Shown here in pieces: positions 6,067 through 19,194 of a stretch of 64,000 nucleotides of DNA (within the stretch, counting starts at the first letter, position 1; each line of letters starts with the position of its first letter). This DNA comes from Archaeoglobaceae archaeon. GTDB taxonomy: Archaea > Halobacteriota > Archaeoglobi > Archaeoglobales > Archaeoglobaceae. The DNA lies in NCBI GenBank assembly GCA_038734275.1, contig JAVYOO010000001.1, positions 372,001 to 436,000 of the forward strand. The letters are read 5' to 3'. Both the position numbers and the translations under genes were made by a program. The notes below the pieces were generated by a model. The model was not told the DNA's origin. It saw only the letters and a list, made by a program, of their open reading frames with translations, and made no database searches.

Positions 6067-6870
6067 TTAAGCATTAAAGATTTCGATTCCGAAATTCGAC
6101 GCTAATTCGATCGCCTTATCATCTGCAAAAGGTGTTACAATGATAAGTCTGCTTGGCTTAATTCCCGTTTCTCTTTCGTAGAATTCTGCTTTTCTCTTGA
6201 AAGCCAAAACGTCCCCCTGACTTATGCTCGATTTTACTTCTATCAAAATCACCTTACCATCGCTTATGGCGACATCGATTTCAATATCGCTCGGAAAGCC
6301 GAAAACGAAACCCTCTTTGTCTTTACCAATCCATTCCTCGACTTTCATTCCGAGTTCTTTTTCGATTATTCCTCTGATTCCTGCTCTGAAGGCTTTTTCG
6401 CTCATTATTCCCCATCTTGCCCCCAGAGCGGAGATCTGATTCCTCAACAACTTGAAACCATTGTTCATGTCCTCTCGAAGCTTTGCTATTTCTTCATCGT
6501 GTCTTCTAAAACCAGCAATCATGTCCTCTCGAAGCTTTGCAATCTCTTCGTCGTGTCTCTTGAAGCCTGTAATCATGTCCTCTCGAAGCTTTGCTATTTC
6601 TTCATCGTGTCTTCTAAAACCAGCAATCATGTCCTCTCGAAGCTTTGCAATCTCTTCGTCGTGTCTCTTGAAGCCTGTAATCATGTCCTCTCGAAGCTTT
6701 TTCAGCTCCTCCTCGTGTCTTAATAGAATTTCTTCGTGTTTATCAAGCCTTTTAAGAATTTCTTGGAGTCCAATAGCCCCAGCCATCGCGTAACGAAATT
6801 CCTTATCCTTTTCAAGCAATTCAATGATCGTTTCTTTGATCAGCTCTCTCATATCGTTTATCGGTAGCAT
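6067..6870 (-). CDS. PD-(D/E)XK nuclease-like protein with coiled-coil 18-residue repeats (DUF3782-like)
   Basis: The 267-residue protein has three parts. Residues 1-55 are a charged helical N-terminus. Residues about 56-135 hold tandem 18-residue repeats of the type KLREDMITGFKRHDEEIA, predicted to form a long coiled coil. The C-terminal ~110 residues contain a PD-(D/E)XK-like core: SDIEIDVAISDGKVILIEVKSS (Asp, then Glu-x-Lys) and LIIVTPFADDKAIELA. Proteins of this build are common in archaea and are often called DUF3782. Nuclease activity is inferred from fold signatures only. It is a single gene with its own TATA element, and nothing nearby gives a pathway. The repeat array at DNA level is listed separately. 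Confidence 0.75.
   Translation of the reverse strand: MLPINDMRELIKETIIELLEKDKEFRYAMAGAIGLQEILKRLDKHEEILLRHEEELKKLREDMITGFKRHDEEIAKLREDMIAGFRRHDEEIAKLREDMITGFKRHDEEIAKLREDMIAGFRRHDEEIAKLREDMNNGFKLLRNQISALGARWGIMSEKAFRAGIRGIIEKELGMKVEEWIGKDKEGFVFGFPSDIEIDVAISDGKVILIEVKSSISQGDVLAFKRKAEFYERETGIKPSRLIIVTPFADDKAIELASNFGIEIFNA
6466..6720 (-). repeat. Five in-frame 54-bp direct repeats (108-bp higher-order unit)
   Basis: Copies begin at 6466, 6520, 6574, 6628 and 6682 (plus-strand landmark CATGTCCTCTCGAAGC), exactly 54 bp apart. Copies one and three are identical, as are two and four, so a 108-bp unit was duplicated perfectly. The fifth copy is partly diverged. Each unit encodes 18 residues of the coiled-coil region. 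The multiple of three keeps the frame open whatever the copy number. Confidence 0.95.
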
Positions 6871-8229: not shown

Positions 8230-11200
8230 TTACTGTCTCTTCCTCAGCAAGTAGGCAACCGCAATCAGTCCAGCGATTGCGAAGATTGCTTCAAAGCCTG
8301 GAATTGGTCCGGGAGCGGGTGTTGTTGTCGGTGGCGGAGTTGTCTCGACTGGTGTCGGTGGCGGAGTTGTTGGTGTCACTTCTGGAGTTGTAACTGGTGG
8401 AGTCGTTGGTGGTGGTGTTGTAACTGCTGGCTTCTCCTTGAGGATCTGGACTGTCTTGATTACGAGGAGATCATCATGGGCTTTATATGTTCTTGCTAAG
8501 GCATCTGCAGGATCGAGATAATAGAGCTCCTTGGCGAGATAGTCTTCTGTCTTCTCAGCAGTTGTATTCATAGTATCTCTAATGTAGAATTTATAGGTTC
8601 CATCTGCGATACCAAGAGTCTCAAACGTAACACTTCCCTTTCCAGTGCTATCGAGTGTTACTCTCTGGTAAGACTTATAGTTCGGTCCAACCATCGTTAC
8701 CCAGACATGGTCGTAGCCCGGAACACCTTCTCTGCTTGTTTCGACGGTTATCTTAATCTGATCCCCGACGACTATTGTCTCTGGCTCGATTTTGACATCC
8801 ATCTTAAGCGATGAAATTTCAACAAGCTTCTGCACCTTATCTACTTCATCGGTTCCGAGATATAGCTTAACCGTGAATACATATAGACCAGGTTCAAGTT
8901 GTTTAGTTGCTCCTTTGTAGGCCTTAAGATCTAGGCGGAATTCCACCTGGTCATTGGCATCCGGTTGTGTATACTCAGACTTGCCGAATGCAGTTGGTTT
9001 GGCCCTTACATTTGGTCCCTCCAGTGTCCAAGTCACAGTAGCATAATTTCTATCACCAGGATCAGTCACTATCTTAACTTCAACTTCTCCCTGATATGGT
9101 ATAACGCTTGGGATCTCTACACTTAGTATTCTTGGATCGGTGACTACGATTGCGAACATTTTTTGTGGATCAGAAGACTTATCAATTTGAGAAGCGTTTG
9201 TTGGAGCATAGAAGTAGAGATAATAAGTTCCAGCATCCGCATCTAATCTCACTTTAATCTTAAAGTCAAGTCTGTCATTCGAATCGGGCTCGAATTTCTT
9301 GGTGCAAGCGGTTATTGGAATAATGGAGTCGGTTGTAACATCATCTACATTGGGCACACCTTCGAATACATTTTCTTCACTTGCAAATACACAAACGTTA
9401 TTAGCAGTCGTGGTGCCTGTGAACCTAATCTCTCCTCCCCTTGCAACCGTAGTCTTGTCAGCGTTCAGATCAATCGTCTGCTTTACAACCGATATTGACA
9501 CAGTATCTATAACATCGCCAGCAATCTTTGCCTTGAATTTGTATTCAGTTAAGGGGGCAGTCTGAGCTACCTCGATCTCTTTATATGCCTTACCAGTAGC
9601 ATCAACTTTCAAGGTTTCGTTAACTTCCTGCCCACTTCCACCGATGATCCTATTATCTTCCATTATGAAGTATACTGGACTGTTGACTTTCAGATTTGTT
9701 ATTATTGTGAACTTGACCTTGTCGCCCCTTACTACCGTGGTCTTGTCTGGGCTAATCTTAACCATGCCTTTAACGAGTTCAAACACTGTGGTTTCATCAT
9801 CTTCGAAACCAGTATCCGTAGTTAGTTTGAATTCTACCTTATAGTAGCCTGTATCCAATTGTGTGGCTCCGGTTAAATCTGGCCATCTCGTTCCAAAGTT
9901 ATCTATCTTGACAGAGAATGTTCTATCCGCACCTATTATAGCACTTGTTGTTCCAATCGTATTATCGTTAAGATCCTTTATAGTTATCGTGACCATGTTT
10001 GGAAGACCAATGTCATATTTGCTATTGGTTTCTGCAACATTTGTAACACCAGTTATAGTCAGATCAGTTCCCTTAACATGCTTTGATGGAACACTGATTG
10101 AGCTAAGCGTGGGCTTTGCGAGTATTATTACCTGAGTGGCTTCTGCTCTATAAGGATCGGTTCCTAAGAACAGGTTCTGTGGATCTTTTCCAGCAGCTAT
10201 CTTCGCTACAATATACCCCTCGGTATCTTTTGTGAATCCATACGCAGAGGTTAATTCGAAGTAATCTGGACAATTCATGTATTTCTCATCGAATTTCGAA
10301 GCCTTGTAAACCTTAGGAGTTAGTGACCATGTTCCGTTCACACAATCCGCATAATACACCTTGCCTTCCCAACCGGTCATTAGAACGCCAACAAAGTAAT
10401 CTTCAGATGCGCTCAGGCTATATTTTAGTTCTACTCTATCACCGAGAGCTGCTGTCATCGGAGTTGCGCTTATTGAGACTGCTGGTTTACCAGCTACTGG
10501 TTTAACCAAGAAGACAAGCCTATCATCCCAGATCGTTCCCAAGTTGTTAAAAGCAACGACTACGTAGTAGCTAGAATACATGCCCTGGTTTGCAGTGTTC
10601 AAGCTATATGTCCTGCTTCCGCCCTGCTCAGGCAAGCTTTCAAGCCACTTATAGTTATCTGGGTCTGTAGCCTTTGCAACGTTAAATACTCCTCCAACTT
10701 TAACCTTAGTTGTGTATGTATACCAGTCAATAACCGCAATATACCTCGTTCCATAGTCCTCTGCTTTATAATAAGACCAAGTTACCGTTAGGTCGATGGC
10801 TTGTCCATATGTTACTTCTTCATCAGAAAGCTTCATTGAAGTTATGGCTAAATCAGGTATTGTGATCGGTCCTTTATTAGTTGGGACTGTTGGTGGAGTG
10901 GTTGGTGGTGGGGTTGTTGGTGGAGTGGTTGGTGGTGGGGTTGTTGAGATTGTCAAACTGCCAACCGAAGGCGTTGCATCTACACCGTCAACACTCGCAG
11001 TAACAACATTGAAGCTTATAGTCCCTGAAGCTCCAGAATCGACTTGGAACACAGCGGTTGCAACTTTTGTCTTGCTTGCAATGTTAACTGGAGAGCTTGA
11101 AACTCCTAAATATCTGACATAATTTGCACTCGAGGATATTGTGTCCATTGTGTTGAACAATCCCTGAGTTGAGCCACTAACGTAGCTGATCTTTGAAGTG

Positions 11201-11379
11201 TCGAAGGTGAAGTTGAGGAGCACAGCATTGGCAGTGCCATCCTGAACGCTGATGTCGACTGCAAAGATTCCACCTGGGGCAACAGTGGTTTTGTTTGGTT
11301 CTATGAATACTGTAGCAGCCATCACTGGAGTCACTAATACTACTAACAACATCAACCCTATTAGTCCGAACTTTTTCAT
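8230..11379 (-). CDS. Surface-anchored cohesin-domain protein (scaffoldin-like) with PGF-CTERM-type tail
   Basis: This large secreted protein (about 1049 residues from the chosen start) begins with a signal peptide (MKKFGLIGLMLLVVLVTPVMA). A cohesin-like module follows directly (about residues 22-145: VFIEPNKTTVAPGGIFAVDI and FDTSKISYVSGSTQG). Then come a Thr/Pro linker and about 800 residues of repeated Ig-like beta domains, several with a TTVxRGxxxxF start. A second Thr/Pro linker leads to the tail PIPGFEAIFAIAGLIAVAYLLRKRQ. The PGF-hydrophobic-basic tail is the archaeosortase-processed type seen on S-layer proteins. The ATG at 11379 is preferred over 11400 because a strong GGAGGT lies seven bases before it. 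The cohesin suggests it binds dockerins of neighbouring secreted proteins and displays them on the cell. Confidence 0.85.
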   Translation of the reverse strand: MKKFGLIGLMLLVVLVTPVMAATVFIEPNKTTVAPGGIFAVDISVQDGTANAVLLNFTFDTSKISYVSGSTQGLFNTMDTISSSANYVRYLGVSSSPVNIASKTKVATAVFQVDSGASGTISFNVVTASVDGVDATPSVGSLTISTTPPPTTPPTTPPPTTPPTVPTNKGPITIPDLAITSMKLSDEEVTYGQAIDLTVTWSYYKAEDYGTRYIAVIDWYTYTTKVKVGGVFNVAKATDPDNYKWLESLPEQGGSRTYSLNTANQGMYSSYYVVVAFNNLGTIWDDRLVFLVKPVAGKPAVSISATPMTAALGDRVELKYSLSASEDYFVGVLMTGWEGKVYYADCVNGTWSLTPKVYKASKFDEKYMNCPDYFELTSAYGFTKDTEGYIVAKIAAGKDPQNLFLGTDPYRAEATQVIILAKPTLSSISVPSKHVKGTDLTITGVTNVAETNSKYDIGLPNMVTITIKDLNDNTIGTTSAIIGADRTFSVKIDNFGTRWPDLTGATQLDTGYYKVEFKLTTDTGFEDDETTVFELVKGMVKISPDKTTVVRGDKVKFTIITNLKVNSPVYFIMEDNRIIGGSGQEVNETLKVDATGKAYKEIEVAQTAPLTEYKFKAKIAGDVIDTVSISVVKQTIDLNADKTTVARGGEIRFTGTTTANNVCVFASEENVFEGVPNVDDVTTDSIIPITACTKKFEPDSNDRLDFKIKVRLDADAGTYYLYFYAPTNASQIDKSSDPQKMFAIVVTDPRILSVEIPSVIPYQGEVEVKIVTDPGDRNYATVTWTLEGPNVRAKPTAFGKSEYTQPDANDQVEFRLDLKAYKGATKQLEPGLYVFTVKLYLGTDEVDKVQKLVEISSLKMDVKIEPETIVVGDQIKITVETSREGVPGYDHVWVTMVGPNYKSYQRVTLDSTGKGSVTFETLGIADGTYKFYIRDTMNTTAEKTEDYLAKELYYLDPADALARTYKAHDDLLVIKTVQILKEKPAVTTPPPTTPPVTTPEVTPTTPPPTPVETTPPPTTTPAPGPIPGFEAIFAIAGLIAVAYLLRKRQ
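10990..11298 (-). repeat. Cohesin-coding tract, copy in the anchored protein
   Basis: By eye these 309 bases are identical to 14472-14780 in the double beta-helix gene, and nearly identical to the tract at 11815-12180 in the protease gene. The match stops sharply at both ends, as expected from recent gene conversion or duplication of the module. Confidence 0.9.
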
Positions 11380-11541
11380 TTTCTCAACCTCCTTCCGCAT
11401 TTTCGTTCACTTCCTACTATATAAATCCTACGATTTAGCGGACGGAGTATAGCCCTGGCTACCCCGCCGCCAAAGCTTAGTTATATTTAAAGTATATAAA
11501 CTTTTTGCCCATCTGTGATATACTTTACTGCAATTGACGAA
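11376..11541 (-). promoter_or_regulatory. Duplicated promoter/leader, copy A (hairpin and strong SD)
   Basis: About 166 bases ahead of the cohesin gene are some 97% identical (5 mismatches seen) to 19191-19356 ahead of the 838-residue dockerin gene. On the minus strand the element has a TATA-like box (GTTTATATACTTTAAATAT, about 11485-11503). It then has a GC-rich imperfect hairpin (GCGGCGGGGTAGCC with GGCTATACTCCGTCCGC, about 11437-11472), a second AT box (GGATTTATATAGTAGG), and the ribosome site GGAGGT seven bases before ATG 11379. If transcription starts after the first TATA, the hairpin lies in a ~90-base 5' leader. Confidence 0.75.
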
Positions 11542-11609
11542 CTCAGAGAAGTCTGTCCGCGAGTGCACTGATCACCTTTAATTATCCTTTTGTCTGCCAT
11601 CTATATTTT

Positions 11610-13865
11610 TTAACCAAATCCAGAATTAGGATTAAACAACCACTTCATTATCACATTTATCAGCTCCAAATCGCTTATTCTGTTGTTCAGCCAGTCCATT
11701 ATCGCTGCTATTAGCTCCTGATCTTCTATTCTGTCATTGCCGTTGCTGTCGTAGCTTTGCCATGGCTCTGTGCCAATTTTTATGCTCTGAACTATTGGCA
11801 TTGCATTTGCTCCATTAACACTTGCTGTAACAACATTGAAGCTTAAAGTCCCTGAAGCTCCAGAATTGACTTGGAACACAGCGGTTGCAACTTTTGTCTT
11901 GCTTGCAATGTTAACTGGAGAGCTTGAAACTCCTAAATATCTGACATAATTTGCACTCGAGGATATTGTGTCCATTGTGTTGAACAATCCCTGAGTTGAG
12001 CCACTAACGTAGCTGATCTTTGAAGTGTCGAAGGTGAAGTTGAGGAGCACAGCATTGGCAGTGCCATCCTGAACGCTGATGTCGACTGCAAAGATTCCAC
12101 CTGGGGCAACAGTGGTTTTGTTTGGCTCGATGAAGATCTTTGCTGAGGTTGTTGGTAGAGGGGTAGTAGGTGTAGGTGTTGTAGGCGGAAGACCGGTATA
12201 TTTCAATGGTAGATAGTCAGTATTGTTAATCGCAATTGTGTAAGCAGAGTCACAGATTCCATCGCCATCTGAGTCTGCACAAGTTTGCGAATATCCAGTC
12301 TCAATCGGGTTCAACCAGACATTTCCTCCAGTATACTTTCCACCAATAATATTTTTAAATGCTGTTTTTGAAATATTCCAAGAATTTTCCAGTGGGCCCA
12401 AATAAACTGTTCCATTTATTATGTTGTCAAAAAACAAATTATTGGAAGAATTAAACAGATACACTGCATAAATGGGATTTTTCTCAATTATGTTTCTATA
12501 AATAATATTACTACTTGAGTAAGATAAATACATGCCCCCGGAATTATTGTGAATCGTATTGTTGACAATGGAGTTTTTTTCCGACGTATAGCATAAATAG
12601 ATTCCAACCGAACCATTCTTAATCGAAAAACCTTCGATATGAGTATAACTTGCTGTTACATTGAATACTGGACCCCCAAAACTATCTAAAATTGCACCCG
12701 AGGTATTTTCAGCTATGAGGAGCACCGATCTGTTTACATTTATGCTTTCATTGTAAATCCCATCTCTTACTATGATCAAGTCGCCACTTTTTGCATTATT
12801 TATTGCATCCTGAACCTTTCTGTAATTGTCCGGAACGTAAATCTTCTGTGGAACAAAATCAACAAGGTAAACTGATTTTTCTATACTACATTCTCCATAA
12901 CCAACCTTAAAATGTCCATCCCCATTCCAAGTTGCTCCCCAGCTGTTCCTGACGATCCAGTATTTTCCTGTCTCGTTGTATCCAACTAAGACTACCGCAT
13001 GATTTTCTTCCTCGAGAAAAATGTCGTCAATACATCTGAATATTCCGTTTTCGTCGAAATACCCTTTACTATCATACCTCATCACTGCTACAAGAGGCCC
13101 GTATGAGACAAGAAACCTCTTTATAGTGCCAATGTCATCTGTGAGATTCCAAAAATTTGATATTTTATAAATCTCATTTCCAATTGAGCATTTTTCAGAG
13201 CATTTTTTAGTTGTGAAGCACGCTGGAGGACTACAATAGTAATCCGAGTAGGGAAAACAGCTCTCCTTAACGATACCGTGCGATTTCAAATAACTCAATG
13301 CCATATAACTGGATCCACCACTACAGTCACCTGCAGAAGAACAGGAGATCAGGTCTTGCTCAGAGAGATCAGGATTGAGATCGGGGGCATCTCTTTTTAT
13401 TTCTATTAGAGATTCCAATACAGCAACAATTGCGAAAGCCCAGCATGCACCACATAAACCCTGATCCTTTACTGGAGTTGTATAGTCTTTTCCTTTGAAA
13501 TTTCGCCAGTCAAAGTAGATCGAGGGGTCGGCTGTGCTGGTTATTTCTCCTTTTTTGACAAGATTTGCAATTTTTCCCGCTTTGAGTTTTTCGGAGCAAT
13601 TTCCCCCATTCCAGGATAAACCACATTCGCAATCGTAGAAAGCCCATGATTCACATTCACTACCATCTGGAAATACACAAAATCCCAATTCACCAGAAGG
13701 AGTTGCTTTAATGACATATTTATAGCCTAAATTCACACAGCGAATTGCTGCTGGATTTGGCATTCCTGCAACAGGGAGAGATTCTTCAATTTCCTTACAG
13801 TCCACAGGAAACAACACTAAATTCAATATTAAGACCATTAAACAACCATATACCAATTTCCGCAT
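11610..13865 (-). CDS. Secreted papain-like protease with DUF333, beta-helix, cohesin and dockerin modules
   Basis: This 751-residue protein has an unusual chain of modules. A signal peptide is followed by a DUF333-like domain (about 34-82: NPAAIRCVNLGYKY, then FCVFPDGSECESWAF). Next is a C1A papain-like peptidase (about 115-338) with catalytic Cys141 in GLCGACWAF, His289 in EENHAVVLVGY and Asn307 in WIVRNSWG. A right-handed beta-helix region (about 341-555, starting KIYVPDNYRKVQDAI), a Thr/Pro linker, a cohesin (576-697) and a dockerin (about 700-745, first loop YDSNGNDRIEDQE) complete it. The catalytic residues are intact, so it is probably an extracellular cysteine protease tethered through its dockerin to a surface cohesin. 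Only 36 bases separate it from the gene upstream, so co-transcription is likely. Confidence 0.88.
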   Translation of the reverse strand: MRKLVYGCLMVLILNLVLFPVDCKEIEESLPVAGMPNPAAIRCVNLGYKYVIKATPSGELGFCVFPDGSECESWAFYDCECGLSWNGGNCSEKLKAGKIANLVKKGEITSTADPSIYFDWRNFKGKDYTTPVKDQGLCGACWAFAIVAVLESLIEIKRDAPDLNPDLSEQDLISCSSAGDCSGGSSYMALSYLKSHGIVKESCFPYSDYYCSPPACFTTKKCSEKCSIGNEIYKISNFWNLTDDIGTIKRFLVSYGPLVAVMRYDSKGYFDENGIFRCIDDIFLEEENHAVVLVGYNETGKYWIVRNSWGATWNGDGHFKVGYGECSIEKSVYLVDFVPQKIYVPDNYRKVQDAINNAKSGDLIIVRDGIYNESINVNRSVLLIAENTSGAILDSFGGPVFNVTASYTHIEGFSIKNGSVGIYLCYTSEKNSIVNNTIHNNSGGMYLSYSSSNIIYRNIIEKNPIYAVYLFNSSNNLFFDNIINGTVYLGPLENSWNISKTAFKNIIGGKYTGGNVWLNPIETGYSQTCADSDGDGICDSAYTIAINNTDYLPLKYTGLPPTTPTPTTPLPTTSAKIFIEPNKTTVAPGGIFAVDISVQDGTANAVLLNFTFDTSKISYVSGSTQGLFNTMDTISSSANYVRYLGVSSSPVNIASKTKVATAVFQVNSGASGTLSFNVVTASVNGANAMPIVQSIKIGTEPWQSYDSNGNDRIEDQELIAAIMDWLNNRISDLELINVIMKWLFNPNSGFG
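11815..12180 (-). repeat. Cohesin-coding tract plus linker, copy in the protease gene
   Basis: This stretch closely matches the cohesin tracts at 10990-11298 and 14472-14780, with only a few differences near its low-coordinate end. It also continues into the linker DNA (GAGGTTGTTGGTAGAGGGGT), shared with the double beta-helix gene but not with the anchored gene. Confidence 0.85.
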
Positions 13866-13901
13866 CCTAACACCAATTCAGAAAAATATAAAATTAAAAT
13901 T

Positions 13902-16613
13902 TCAACTCAACCACTTCATTATCACATTTATCAGCTCATGATCGCTCAATTCGTTGTTCAACCAGTCCATTATCGCTGTGATTAGCTCCTGATCTTCGAT
14001 TCTGCCATTGCCGTTGCTGTCGTAAGCCTGCCATGGCTCCTCAATGATTTGAATATTGTAAATACTAATTTCAGAAGGTTTATTGTCGACATTTGCATCA
14101 ATAATACTAAATTCAATTGCCCCCGTTGCGTTTGAATTAACTTTAAACACAGCGGTTGCAACTTTTGTCTTGCTTGCAATGTTAACTGGAGAGCTTGAAA
14201 CTCCTAAATATCTGACATAATTTGCACTCGAGGATATTGTGTCAATTGTGTTGAACACTCCCTGAGTTGAGCCAGTAACGTAGCTGATCTTTGAAGTGTC
14301 GAAGGTGAAGTTGAGGAGCACTGATTGTGCGGTGCCATCCTGAACGCTGATATCGACTGCAAAGATTCCACCTGGGGCAACAGTGGTTTTGTTTGGCTCG
14401 ATGAAGATCTTGTTTTTAACTATTTGAATGCTGAACACAGTTAAATTAGCCAAGGATACATTTACTCCATTAACACTCGCAGTAACAACATTGAAGCTTA
14501 TAGTCCCTGAAGCTCCAGAATCGACTTGGAACACAGCGGTTGCAACTTTTGTCTTGCTTGCAATGTTAACTGGAGAGCTTGAAACTCCTAAATATCTGAC
14601 ATAATTTGCACTCGAGGATATTGTGTCCATTGTGTTGAACAATCCCTGAGTTGAGCCACTAACGTAGCTGATCTTTGAAGTGTCGAAGGTGAAGTTGAGG
14701 AGCACAGCATTGGCAGTGCCATCCTGAACGCTGATGTCGACTGCAAAGATTCCACCTGGGGCAACAGTGGTTTTGTTTGGCTCGATGAAGATCTTTGCTG
14801 AGGTTGTTGGTAGAGGGGTAGTAGGTGTAGGTGTTGGTGCGGAAGTGGGAGTTGGTGTTGGAGTTGGGGTTGTGGGTGGGGTGGTAGGTGGAGTAGTTGG
14901 CGGGGTTGTTGGTGGTGTTGTAGGCGGAAGACCGGTATATTTCAATGGTAGATAGTCAGTATTGTTAATCGCAATTGTGTAAGCAGAGTCACAGATTCCA
15001 TCGCTATTGCTATCTGAACAAGTCATTGAAAATCCGCCACCCCATGGTAGAATCCAAGCATTACCACCGAGGTAGTTACCACCAACAATATTCTTAGAGC
15101 TTTGCTTGGTCGTATTCCAATAGTTTACGGAATTCTCTAAATAGACATATTGCGTGATAAGGTTGTTATAAATCCGATTATTCGTTGAATTAACAATATA
15201 AAGTGCATGGCGAGTGTTATCCACTATTGTGTTCCATGAGATCTCGTTGTCTTCTGCAGCATAGAGTATTACCCCTTCCTTACTGTTCCCAGTGACTGAA
15301 TTATTTTGGAGGACATTGTTTTTGAAGTAATAACATGCCAATCCGTAAAGAGAACTGTTTCGGATTACATTGTTTGTGAATTTGCTTTCTGAAATCCACC
15401 ACAACTTAACTGGAGCACCTATAACAGTGCAGTTCGTAATTGTAATGTTCTTAACACCATTGGCATCAATTGAATAACTTGAATTAACTATCCTAAAACC
15501 ATCAAGTGTAACATCACTTGCTCTTATTTGTATTGCGACGACACCCAAGCCATCGATTATTGTGCAATTTGATCCGCAGGCTGATTTGATTGTTAGCGGT
15601 TTGTTTATAATTATATTTTCAGCATACGCTCCGGGTTTCACTATTATTAAGCTTCCGGGCGTTGCGTTGTCTATTGCTTGCTGGATCGTGGTATAGTTGT
15701 CTGGAACGTAGATGTCTCCAACAAGGTTTAAACAAGGATCTCTTGGAGTCAAATTAACCTTTAATGGTAAGTAATCTATGTTATTCATAGCAATTGTGTA
15801 AGCAGAGTCACAGATTCCATCGCTATTGCTATCTGAACAAGTCATTGAAAATCCGCCACCCCATGGTAGAATCCAAGCATTACCACCGAGGTAGTTACCA
15901 CCAACAATATTCTTAGAGCTTTGCTTGGTCGTATTCCAATAGTTTACGGAATTCTCTAAATAGACATATTGCGTGATAAGGTTGTTATAAATCCGATTAT
16001 TCGTTGAATTAACAATATAAAGTGCATGGCGAGTGTTATCCACTATTGTGTTCCATGAGATCTCGTTGTCTTCTGCAGCATAGAGTATTACCCCTTCCTT
16101 ACTGTTCCCAGTGACTGAATTATTTTGGAGGACATTGTTTTTGAAGTAATAACATGCCAATCCGTAAAGAGAACTGTTTCGGATTACATTGTTTGTGAAT
16201 TTGCTTTCTGAAATCCACCACAACTTAACTGGAGCACCTATAACAGTGCAGTTCGTAATTGTAATGTTCTTAACACCATTGGCATCAATTGAATAACTTG
16301 AATTAACTATCCTAAAACCATCAAGTGTAACATCACTTGCTCTTATTTGTATTGCGACGACACCCAAGCCATCGATTATTGTGCAATTTGATCCGCAGGC
16401 TGATTTGATTGTTAGCGGTTTGTTTATAATTATATTTTCAGCATACGCTCCGGGTTTCACTATTATTAAGCTTCCGGGCGTTGCGTTGTCTATTGCTTGC
16501 TGGATCGTGGTATAGTTGTCTGGGACATATATATTAGCAGACGCCACGGGAAGTATCATTATCAATACCAAACATAAACTTGTTTTTCCCATCACTATAA
16601 TTCTTTTTTCCAT
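13902..16613 (-). CDS. Secreted double beta-helix protein with two cohesins and a dockerin
   Basis: This protein of about 903 residues has a signal-peptide-like N-terminus (MGKTSLCLVLIMILPVASA). Two practically identical ~273-residue right-handed beta-helix (NosD/pectate-lyase-like) domains follow, each starting IYVPDNYTTIQQAIDNATPG and ending near SDSNSDGICDSAYTIA. A Thr/Pro linker, two tandem cohesins (about 627-745 and 750-855) and a C-terminal dockerin (YDSNGNGRIEDQELITAIMD) complete it. Beta-helix proteins of this sort often bind or cleave polysaccharides, but no catalytic residues can be assigned. Two cohesins and one dockerin in one chain would allow branching assembly. The frame opens with a TTG at 16619; ATG 16613 is preferred because a TATA-like box (CTTTTAAAGC) lies about 25 bases upstream, giving a leaderless start. 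Confidence 0.85.
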   Translation of the reverse strand: MEKRIIVMGKTSLCLVLIMILPVASANIYVPDNYTTIQQAIDNATPGSLIIVKPGAYAENIIINKPLTIKSACGSNCTIIDGLGVVAIQIRASDVTLDGFRIVNSSYSIDANGVKNITITNCTVIGAPVKLWWISESKFTNNVIRNSSLYGLACYYFKNNVLQNNSVTGNSKEGVILYAAEDNEISWNTIVDNTRHALYIVNSTNNRIYNNLITQYVYLENSVNYWNTTKQSSKNIVGGNYLGGNAWILPWGGGFSMTCSDSNSDGICDSAYTIAMNNIDYLPLKVNLTPRDPCLNLVGDIYVPDNYTTIQQAIDNATPGSLIIVKPGAYAENIIINKPLTIKSACGSNCTIIDGLGVVAIQIRASDVTLDGFRIVNSSYSIDANGVKNITITNCTVIGAPVKLWWISESKFTNNVIRNSSLYGLACYYFKNNVLQNNSVTGNSKEGVILYAAEDNEISWNTIVDNTRHALYIVNSTNNRIYNNLITQYVYLENSVNYWNTTKQSSKNIVGGNYLGGNAWILPWGGGFSMTCSDSNSDGICDSAYTIAINNTDYLPLKYTGLPPTTPPTTPPTTPPTTPPTTPTPTPTPTSAPTPTPTTPLPTTSAKIFIEPNKTTVAPGGIFAVDISVQDGTANAVLLNFTFDTSKISYVSGSTQGLFNTMDTISSSANYVRYLGVSSSPVNIASKTKVATAVFQVDSGASGTISFNVVTASVNGVNVSLANLTVFSIQIVKNKIFIEPNKTTVAPGGIFAVDISVQDGTAQSVLLNFTFDTSKISYVTGSTQGVFNTIDTISSSANYVRYLGVSSSPVNIASKTKVATAVFKVNSNATGAIEFSIIDANVDNKPSEISIYNIQIIEEPWQAYDSNGNGRIEDQELITAIMDWLNNELSDHELINVIMKWLS
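14472..14780 (-). repeat. Cohesin-coding tract, copy in the double beta-helix gene
   Basis: Identical by eye over 309 bases to 10990-11298. The other cohesin of this gene (about 14150-14410) is clearly more diverged, so the first cohesin is closer to one in another gene than to its own neighbour. Confidence 0.9.
14971..15704 (-). repeat. 734-bp intragenic tandem duplication, unit 1
   Basis: These bases are identical by eye to 15790-16523, offset 819 bp (273 codons). The unit encodes one beta-helix domain. Identity ends abruptly at both sides. It appears as GCAATTGTGT at the low end and GTTGTCTGG at the high end on the plus strand. Confidence 0.93.
15790..16523 (-). repeat. 734-bp intragenic tandem duplication, unit 2
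   Basis: Second copy of the beta-helix coding unit, identical by eye to 14971-15704. The lack of even synonymous changes over 734 bp implies a very recent duplication or ongoing gene conversion. An assembly artefact is unlikely because the flanks differ. Confidence 0.93.
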
Positions 16614-16651
16614 AAACAAATTCTGGATGGAGCTTTAAAAGCTTTTCCTAA

Positions 16652-16663
16652 TGATTACAATCA
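16652..16663. promoter_or_regulatory. Dyad TGATT-AC-AATCA upstream of the double beta-helix gene
   Basis: A perfect 5-base dyad with a 2-base centre lies just upstream of the TATA-like box of the 16613 gene, where an archaeal regulator could act. The core ATTGTAAT (reverse strand) recurs in two other promoters in this window. It is a candidate operator only. Confidence 0.35.
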
Positions 16664-16698
16664 TCAAAAAATTAAGAAAAATTGTAAAAATTTAGTGT

Positions 16699-19194
16699 TT
16701 AGCCACTTAGCCACTTCAGTATAACGTTTATGAGCTCCTGATCACTCAATTCGTTGCCTAACCAGTCCAAGATCGCTGCTATTAGCTCCTGATCTTCGAT
16801 CTTGCCATTGCCGTTGCTGTCGTAAGCCTGCCATGGCTCCTGTGGAGGTGGCGTTGTTGGTGGCGGTGTTGAAGGAACTCCGGAAACGATATACTTCAAG
16901 TAGTTTGCATTGCCGACTTTGTCTGTCGCAACGACAACTACTTCATCTCCAACAGCGAGGATGTTCTTTGGAACCGTAACAGTTGCGTTGAATCCATCGC
17001 TCGCTATGGTGCACTGATCTGTTATGTCAACTCCATTCTTGAGCACCGCAATTCCAGTGCCATAGACGAGCATGTCGATGCTTATGCCAAACTGGGAGCT
17101 ACCCAAATTATCGTAGAACCTGATCTTTGCACAGTCATCGCACTCCTCCATATAGTAGCAACCCTCGCAATTTGCTGAAGCAGAGCAGTCCATTTCGCAA
17201 TTCTGTAGTGGCACTCTTACCCACATGCTATGTGGACAGCCATTCCAGTAGTATTCGTCCCAATCTGTGTATAATCCATACCGGCAATTTCCTCCCCAGT
17301 CTCCTGGGTTGTATTCGAAGATGTCACAGTCTCTGCATCCTCCTATTATGCTCAGGTAATCCTGATAGCCAAGTTCAATTCTGTCAAAGTGCACCGCAAC
17401 GGATCTCGTCTGCTTCAATGGATCATAGAGATCATAGTAGTATCGAATATCTCTATCATATGGCGGATAAGTGTTCCAACGGCTGAATTGGAAGCCTACA
17501 TCCTTGTATTTCACTTTAATGGGCTCACTGTCAGCGTTTGCTTCAACTCCGACCAAGTTATCGGTGATGCTGAAAACTAAGCTCGTTCCAGTATCCTGCA
17601 TAGCACTGAAAGTTGGACCAGTATTGTCGATAATTATTGTCAGATTTTTCTTTGGATAAGAACTAAATGTTGCATCCGCAACTGGGTCGTAGTAAACCGC
17701 TTCTACTGTAACTTCATATTTATAGTTCAAATCGATCTTTGTGTAATCTCCAAGGCACTCACAATCCGTGTAGTAATAATCTGGCTTGTATTTAGCACAT
17801 CCCGGTATATAGCAAGTATTACCTGAAACCAAATAGAATTCGTATACGTAGAACCCATATCCATTGCTTGGGTTGGTGTCATTTACAAACCTGAATCTAA
17901 ACTGTATATTCCCTGCTGCACCCGTATCAGATATTGTATACTCGAATTTGTCTAAGCAAGTATTATCATCAATAGTGAATTCTTTTATAGTATTCCACTG
18001 TCCTCCGTAGTAAGCCTCAAAAACAACCTTGTCATTTCCAGCCAAATTTGAAGTATACATAAAGTAGACGTTAATGGAAGAATTATTGCATCTCAAAGCT
18101 ATTGGTGGGCTCGTAAGGTTACCGGGTCTATCGAGGTATCTTCCAGTTAAGTTGAATCCCCAGACATTCATTGAACTCAGAGGTTTCCCTGTATAATAAT
18201 ACGTATCTGGACATGCGTTAGGTGCTCCAAGAATTGTTGGTTCGCCATATTTCCACTGACCATCCCCGGTCCAACTATAGCTATCAATATCAAAGTAGTA
18301 GTATAACTCTCTACCCTCAAGACTGGGCACTTCAATATTTCCTGGCTCCAAGCATACGTTGGTATTCTTCACCTGAGGCGTTACTTGCTCAACCCAAACC
18401 CATCTTGATACACCGTCCTCTCCTGGCATTTTGATGAATTTCTTGAAGTATAGCAATTCTCTACCCTCTTGATACGGAGCCTTTAGATAGAAACAAGAGT
18501 CTGGAACCGCTTGCATCACTGTGTTTGTAGTGCTGTTGTAATTATAATAGCACACACCTTCACATGGCAATACCTGTGGATTCGGTGGGGGTATGACAAC
18601 GTGCTCAGCAACGCAGATCTTTGCAGTGTATTCACCATACTCTACAGTTTGATAGTAATCCATTAAGTTAATAGCTGTAACAAAGTATCCGCCCTTGTTG
18701 GGGGTTTTTACATTTGTAATATTGAGCTTGAACTTCTGAGGTCCAACAAGCTGTGTATAATTCTGTTCATTCACTTCTGTAACCACTAGATAACTCGGAG
18801 CAGTTGTGTTCTTAATAGCCTTGCTCGTTAGATCCCATGTAGCCATTGCAGTGAGATTTGTCCTGTAGTAAGAACCAATATCGGCTAAACCGAAATAGAA
18901 CTCAACTCCTGGCATTGGTGGCTGTGGGACAATTCTAATCGTATATGTGTCTGGTATAGTTCCCGTATGGTTTAGCTCGAATTCAAATATTAAGTTTGCA
19001 GTTGTATTGTTTGGCAGTGTGCATGGGATGTATGGTGCGCTCATTCCATCTATGAATTGATATATCGTCTTGTTAACCATTTGGCCTTCATATTCAAACT
19101 CTGCATAAATTGTAACGTTTTTCATTGGCACTGCACTCGCTGGCAACATTAATATCACTAACAGCACTAATCCTATCAATCCATACCCTTTCAT
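16699..19194 (-). CDS. Secreted Tyr/Cys-rich protein with C-terminal dockerin
   Basis: This protein of about 831 residues starts with a signal peptide (MKGYGLIGLVLLVILMLPASA). A long beta-rich extracellular region follows, unusually rich in Tyr. A Cys cluster lies at about 640-720 (GGCRDCDIFEYNPGDWGGNC, then MDCSASANCEGCYYMEECDDC), consistent with disulfides or metal binding. A Pro/Thr spacer leads to a dockerin (AYDSNGNGKIEDQELIAAIL, then QELINVILKWL). I recognise no enzyme domain. The dockerin suggests that the cohesins of the neighbouring gene products hold it at the cell surface. The ATG at 19194 is chosen over 19215 because GGAGGT sits seven bases before it. It shares its whole leader with the anchored cohesin gene. 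Confidence 0.8.
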   Translation of the reverse strand: MKGYGLIGLVLLVILMLPASAVPMKNVTIYAEFEYEGQMVNKTIYQFIDGMSAPYIPCTLPNNTTANLIFEFELNHTGTIPDTYTIRIVPQPPMPGVEFYFGLADIGSYYRTNLTAMATWDLTSKAIKNTTAPSYLVVTEVNEQNYTQLVGPQKFKLNITNVKTPNKGGYFVTAINLMDYYQTVEYGEYTAKICVAEHVVIPPPNPQVLPCEGVCYYNYNSTTNTVMQAVPDSCFYLKAPYQEGRELLYFKKFIKMPGEDGVSRWVWVEQVTPQVKNTNVCLEPGNIEVPSLEGRELYYYFDIDSYSWTGDGQWKYGEPTILGAPNACPDTYYYTGKPLSSMNVWGFNLTGRYLDRPGNLTSPPIALRCNNSSINVYFMYTSNLAGNDKVVFEAYYGGQWNTIKEFTIDDNTCLDKFEYTISDTGAAGNIQFRFRFVNDTNPSNGYGFYVYEFYLVSGNTCYIPGCAKYKPDYYYTDCECLGDYTKIDLNYKYEVTVEAVYYDPVADATFSSYPKKNLTIIIDNTGPTFSAMQDTGTSLVFSITDNLVGVEANADSEPIKVKYKDVGFQFSRWNTYPPYDRDIRYYYDLYDPLKQTRSVAVHFDRIELGYQDYLSIIGGCRDCDIFEYNPGDWGGNCRYGLYTDWDEYYWNGCPHSMWVRVPLQNCEMDCSASANCEGCYYMEECDDCAKIRFYDNLGSSQFGISIDMLVYGTGIAVLKNGVDITDQCTIASDGFNATVTVPKNILAVGDEVVVVATDKVGNANYLKYIVSGVPSTPPPTTPPPQEPWQAYDSNGNGKIEDQELIAAILDWLGNELSDQELINVILKWLSG

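Follow-up and report, generated by a model that had tools for sequence, protein, structure and literature searches.

Cohesin and dockerin modules have been known in archaea since 1999, as indicated by a work that a later article lists (reference 167 in PMC9012536), and large multi-cohesin scaffoldins were noted to be missing from the archaea surveyed first (PMC9012536). Dockerin/cohesin proteins have been described for ANME archaea (Timmers 2017, PMC5244752; Chadwick 2022, PMC9012536), and in ANME-2c S-layer domains occur together with dockerins (Chadwick 2022, PMC9012536). Non-cellulosomal cohesin/dockerin systems of archaea, those of Archaeoglobus fulgidus included, are already known. New in the locus described here are a cohesin inserted into the S-layer-like protein of a lineage, a one-loop EF module as its putative binding partner, and a recurrent cargo of proteases and beta-helix proteins. 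Our literature search, which covered a minor part of the subscription literature, found no account of a cohesin-bearing S-layer-like scaffold system. The reading that we favor, and hold to be rather probable, is that an S-layer-type protein has come to present a cohesin to secreted cargo (a papain-like protease, beta-helix proteins and others), whose EF modules likely dock there.

The window, by which we mean the whole stretch of 64,000 nucleotides that was analyzed, corresponds to G000:C1:372001-436000, in an Archaeoglobaceae genome (G000) of 1.73 Mb. Four intact open reading frames on the minus strand, P0001 to P0004, form a single same-strand array with intergenic gaps of 209, 36, and 79 nt. 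Their module content is as originally predicted: a cohesin and a PGF-CTERM signal in P0001 (8230..11400, 1056 aa), one or more cohesins plus an EF module in P0002 (11610..13865) and P0003 (13902..16619), and an EF module only in P0004 (16699..19215). P0002 consists of DUF333, a papain-family C1 peptidase domain (12867..13514), a NosD beta-helix, a cohesin-like module (11769..12143, residues 575–699) and the EF (dockerin-like) module (11631..11768). The predicted cysteine protease cargo is supported by the family match (E 3.9e-43) and by an alignment to dipeptidyl peptidase I (E 6e-34), in which the catalytic Cys/His/Asn motifs line up. DUF333 immediately precedes the peptidase (12867-13766) and could be its propeptide or inhibitor.

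P0003, which starts with TTG and has an ATG two codons further in, contains two tandem NosD beta-helices followed by a first (14415..14798) and a second (14040..14414) cohesin-like module and an EF module (13905..14039). The DNA of the two beta-helix domains (14940-16535) is 99.2% identical, reflecting a very recent tandem duplication. P0004 is a secreted, Cys-containing protein without assigned function, whose signal peptide resembles that of P0001; it ends in a Pro/Thr linker and an EF module (16702..16839) without an adjacent cohesin. Elsewhere in the window (6067-6870), a PD-(D/E)XK_10/DUF3782 protein has near-identical coiled-coil repeats (RHDEEIAKLREDMI).

The three genes P0001, P0002, and P0003 encode four divergent cohesin modules (one, one, and two, respectively). 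Pfam and NCBIfam searches with the full-length window proteins gave no cohesin or dockerin call, and none of the window cohesin copies reached the curated cut-off of PF00963. This family matched 3 of 11 relatives (best E 5e-5), was the sole Pfam family to match more than one member, and found the cohesin copy of a genome from the same genus (G052; E 2.4e-4, 21.6 bits against a cut-off of 24.1). A profile-profile alignment (hhalign) of the window type with the standard cohesins of the class scored 75% (E 2.5e-5), with decoys at 21% or less, and the score rose to 91% once the cohesin type of a further genome, G017, was added. AlphaFold predicts a nine-strand cohesin for the cohesin-EF unit of P0002 (pLDDT 72, pTM 0.61; one good model out of five). 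A Foldseek search of the PDB with this model matched cohesins almost exclusively (best E 4.6e-7), including 2xdh of A. fulgidus, whose non-cellulosomal proteins have this fold in common with the window modules. A single-sequence PDB search with the window cohesin gave no match.

At the DNA level, the cohesin copies of the window and a further copy on contig C2 are 86-99% identical, and are therefore not chance matches; the P0001 copy is 96-97% identical to those of P0002 and P0003. Gene conversion, or selection to fit a common plug, would produce such near-identity within one genome. The window cohesins align with the standard cohesins of the same genome (contig C5) at 14-18% identity, and a mixed alignment that included the latter had diverged too far to serve in scanning genomes. 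Together, sequence profiles and the structural model support the view that the window modules are genuine but divergent cohesins, homologous to accepted ones; the predicted label stands as to fold and profile homology, but all window copies fall below the family cut-off. Cohesins and carbohydrate-binding modules belong to one superfamily and the cargo includes NosD-type beta-helices, which would accord with the cohesin-fold module being instead a carbohydrate-binding module, similar in fold class, that holds S-layer or foreign glycans. As nearly all fold matches are cohesins and this reading gives no reason for the presence of a duplicated EF module alongside, we consider it highly improbable.

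The EF module comprises 46 residues at the C-terminus of P0002, P0003, and P0004, and contains a single EF calcium loop (DSNGNGRIEDQE). This loop is of the type DxNxN/D, and the second loop is shortened and misses its ligands; two calcium-binding F-hand loops, as in a type I dockerin, were not found in the module. Two 14-residue helices repeat at an offset of 17 residues; in 10 of the 13 members, 7-10 of the 14 positions are identical (p 2e-4 to 6e-4 by shuffling). Since a dockerin is built as a duplicated F-hand and has two loops, the EF module looks, from its sequence, like one that has lost the second loop. Of the predicted dockerin label, the helix duplication is thus retained, but the second calcium loop and membership of PF00404 are not: within the G000 genome, matches to PF00404 are confined to C5 and the window EF modules are unmatched.

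These features leave room for a different function, in which the EF module would not bind cohesin but form a calcium-stabilized C-terminal cap or contact another partner (a surface glycan or the S-layer), and the cohesin-fold modules would be beta-sandwich spacers or adhesive modules. EF-hand Pfam models match all 13 members, PF00404 only one and weakly (1/13, E 0.056). The EF module is modeled by AlphaFold at pLDDT 96.7, and a fold search with the 47-residue model yielded nothing significant, EF-hand proteins ranking above 4fl4, the lone cellulosome entry listed; a single-sequence PDB search returned calbindins and calmodulins. In P0002, P0003 and the protein encoded on C2, moreover, the EF module abuts the cohesin with no linker in between. 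The EF module of P0004, however, sits on a free linker, and the genomic pairing of the two modules, discussed below, also argues against this reading.

The EF module occurs in 28 of the 393 genomes of the phylum and is more widely distributed than the window-type cohesin. In an ANME-1-like family (f7; L102, L103, L106) it ends substrate-binding proteins of the OppA/NikA type, and these modules are probably the ANME "dockerins" of Chadwick 2022. The ANME proteins resemble those of the window in being secreted, in the one-loop EF module at the C-terminus and in sometimes having several cohesins per chain. Their common cargo consists of ABC-binding proteins, whereas that of the window consists of a protease and beta-helix proteins, and ANME-2c places the dockerin with the S-layer domains, whereas here the cohesin is on the S-layer-like protein.

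Genes for EF cargo lie beside a gene for a protein with an N-terminal cohesin in the window, in the C1:51-58.6 kb region of the same genome and its counterpart in G052, and at G016:C49. In G017, EF cargo and an N-terminal-cohesin scaffold are present in the same genome; the scaffold and a propeller-type cargo protein have a common diverged cohesin (93-95% identical). G017 had been considered as a counter-example, with the EF module but no cohesin, and was dropped as such when its loci showed the diverged cohesin on scaffold and cargo. All genomes with a window-type cohesin also carry the EF module. A further window-type cohesin and EF protein is encoded on contig C2. Across loci, divergence among the scaffold cohesins tracks that among the trans-cargo EF modules (correlation coefficient 0.976; 2 of 120 permutations), a correlation over five loci only that partly reflects shared descent. 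In the G023 genome (99% complete), an EF-module protein is present and a profile search for the cohesin found none, which speaks for a function of the module apart from cohesin. Weighed against the consistent co-occurrence, the repeated gene adjacency and the parallel divergence, we judge an EF module that does not bind cohesin to be unlikely, though of appreciable weight, and favor docking of the EF cargo to the scaffold cohesin.

A protease recurs among the cargo: a C1 peptidase at the window, a C25 peptidase with beta-helix in G017 and an S8 peptidase adjoining the G016 locus. The C1 sister locus (G000:C1:51132-58572; L018:3133-10573) comprises lipase/pectinacetylesterase-like hydrolases with a diverged EF end and, after them, a PGF-CTERM protein of 1247 aa that bears a cohesin at its N-terminus. 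The hydrolase frame at this locus is interrupted by a TGA at a position where G052 has a tryptophan. The G017 protein (L116:8330-12217) combines, in an archaeon, a gingipain-type C25 peptidase and its propeptide with a NosD beta-helix and a C-terminal EF module. The EF protein of G023 (L064:6603-10847) is secreted, 1414 aa long, and has the EF module at its end.

P0001 is a long, secreted and anchored protein that is conserved throughout the lineage. Directly behind the signal peptide lies the cohesin-like module (10942..11316, residues 29–153), followed by a Thr/Pro linker assigned from the sequence (10876..10941), the body that is conserved among S-layer-like proteins of the Archaeoglobaceae (8401..10875; profile A10, residues 426–985) and the PGF-CTERM sorting signal (8233..8310, residues 1031–1056). 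The predicted surface anchor is supported: the signal matches PF18204 (E 1.7e-9) and exceeds the TIGR04126 cut-off (26.1 bits vs. 24.5), and the genome encodes archaeosortase A. No finding contradicts the earlier statement that the window has no archaeosortase gene, and the genome search placed one at C8:20704-21411 (TIGR04125, 205 bits vs. 75).

Homologues of the P0001 body (residues 426-985) occur in 49 of the 59 genomes of the class; among good genomes the figure is 39 of 43. Among the 30 homologue loci that were read, profiles found an N-terminal cohesin only in G000 and G017, and likewise on a fragment in G016. In the orthologue of the sister species G052, which is 68% identical over 906 residues, the cohesin is absent: the signal peptide is directly followed by NKGPI, where P0001 has approximately 145 extra residues (the cohesin and the Thr/Pro linker). 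The difference is most simply read as a precise gain of this segment rather than a loss, as the cohesin is rare in the P0001 family. A transferred-island origin of the scaffold cohesin was considered, and the neighbors of the S-layer-like gene differ among G052, G051, and G049. The original prediction did not foresee that the anchored protein belongs to an S-layer-like family spread through the lineage and has probably gained its cohesin.

With the S-layer glycoproteins of the PGF-CTERM/archaeosortase A type (HVO_2072 and MEMAR_RS02690 families), P0001 has in common the signal peptide, a Thr-rich stalk, the PGF-CTERM and an archaeosortase A in the genome, and these families give partial, sub-threshold matches to the C-terminal part of P0001 relatives. 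P0001 itself lies far below the family cut-offs (NF041431, 25.9 vs. 600 bits, the match being limited to the C-terminal part), and differs in its N-terminal cohesin. We therefore call P0001 S-layer-like, with a putative role in the lattice. A second widespread protein of approximately 575-670 aa (G000:C10:35520-35981, and most genomes of the class) is related to the P0001 family in its C-terminal part only; it is a possible second coat protein, and either of the two could be the one that forms the lattice. A bolder version, for which our confidence is low, is that the whole S-layer serves as the scaffoldin: each subunit of the crystalline coat would show an outward cohesin, so that proteases and beta-helix proteins could dock at high density across a two-dimensional lattice, and the Archaeoglobaceae would have made this change more than once, with sequence-distinct plug-socket pairs.

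The genome also contains a standard cohesin/dockerin set that passes PF00963 and PF00404 (C5:6452-7786). The surrounding locus (G000:C5:4572-9340, L020) encodes a 725-aa protein with a cohesin and a two-loop dockerin, a 171-aa anchored cohesin, a 189-aa dockerin protein and an anchored beta-helix protein. As at the window, an anchored cohesin, here small and with a PGF-CTERM-like signal, adjoins dockerin proteins; the window differs in its one-loop EF modules and its long S-layer-like scaffold. Because this set exists beside the window types, a single cell may have two or three kinds of plug and socket. Further dockerin-type proteins were indeed found in the genome (C2, the C1 sister locus and C5), but the proposal of a distinct kind of extracellular machine is not supported as it was put, as the same genome has a standard set like other Archaeoglobaceae and ANME archaea are rich in such modules. 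The cohesin fold and the logic of anchor, scaffold and cargo are those of the bacterial cellulosome; the four window proteins, however, lack a large multi-cohesin scaffoldin, a cellulase and a cellulose-binding module, and have the EF module in place of a two-loop dockerin. To call the window system a cellulosome-like machine would be too strong.

According to the favored model, P0001, a lineage-wide S-layer-like protein anchored through PGF-CTERM and archaeosortase, would have gained a cohesin at its mature N-terminus, onto which the EF modules of P0002, P0003, P0004 and the C2-encoded protein would dock in a calcium-dependent manner. As P0002 and P0003 carry both cohesin(s) and an EF module, they could, once docked, offer further sockets, resulting in chains or branched layers. 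The same combination on one chain, also seen in the C2 protein and in relatives from SKYB18, SKYB47, and B35_G2, would equally fit a cargo-to-cargo mode, in which P0002 and P0003 polymerize into extracellular fibers or a matrix, with P0001 serving only as the base. We regard this mode as quite unlikely; the near-identical cohesin on the anchored P0001 and the plug-only P0004 fit attachment to the cell equally, and the two modes are compatible.

In the model of cargo docked to the S-layer-like scaffold, the likely role of the system would be to keep proteolysis and glycan binding or processing at the cell coat, for feeding on or attaching to extracellular material. The one-loop module and its cohesin are a candidate thermostable plug-socket pair for display work. 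If the model is true, a cohesin on the main anchored surface protein would explain how large archaeal assemblies can exist without a scaffoldin, and would show how an anaerobic thermophile retains proteases at its coat.
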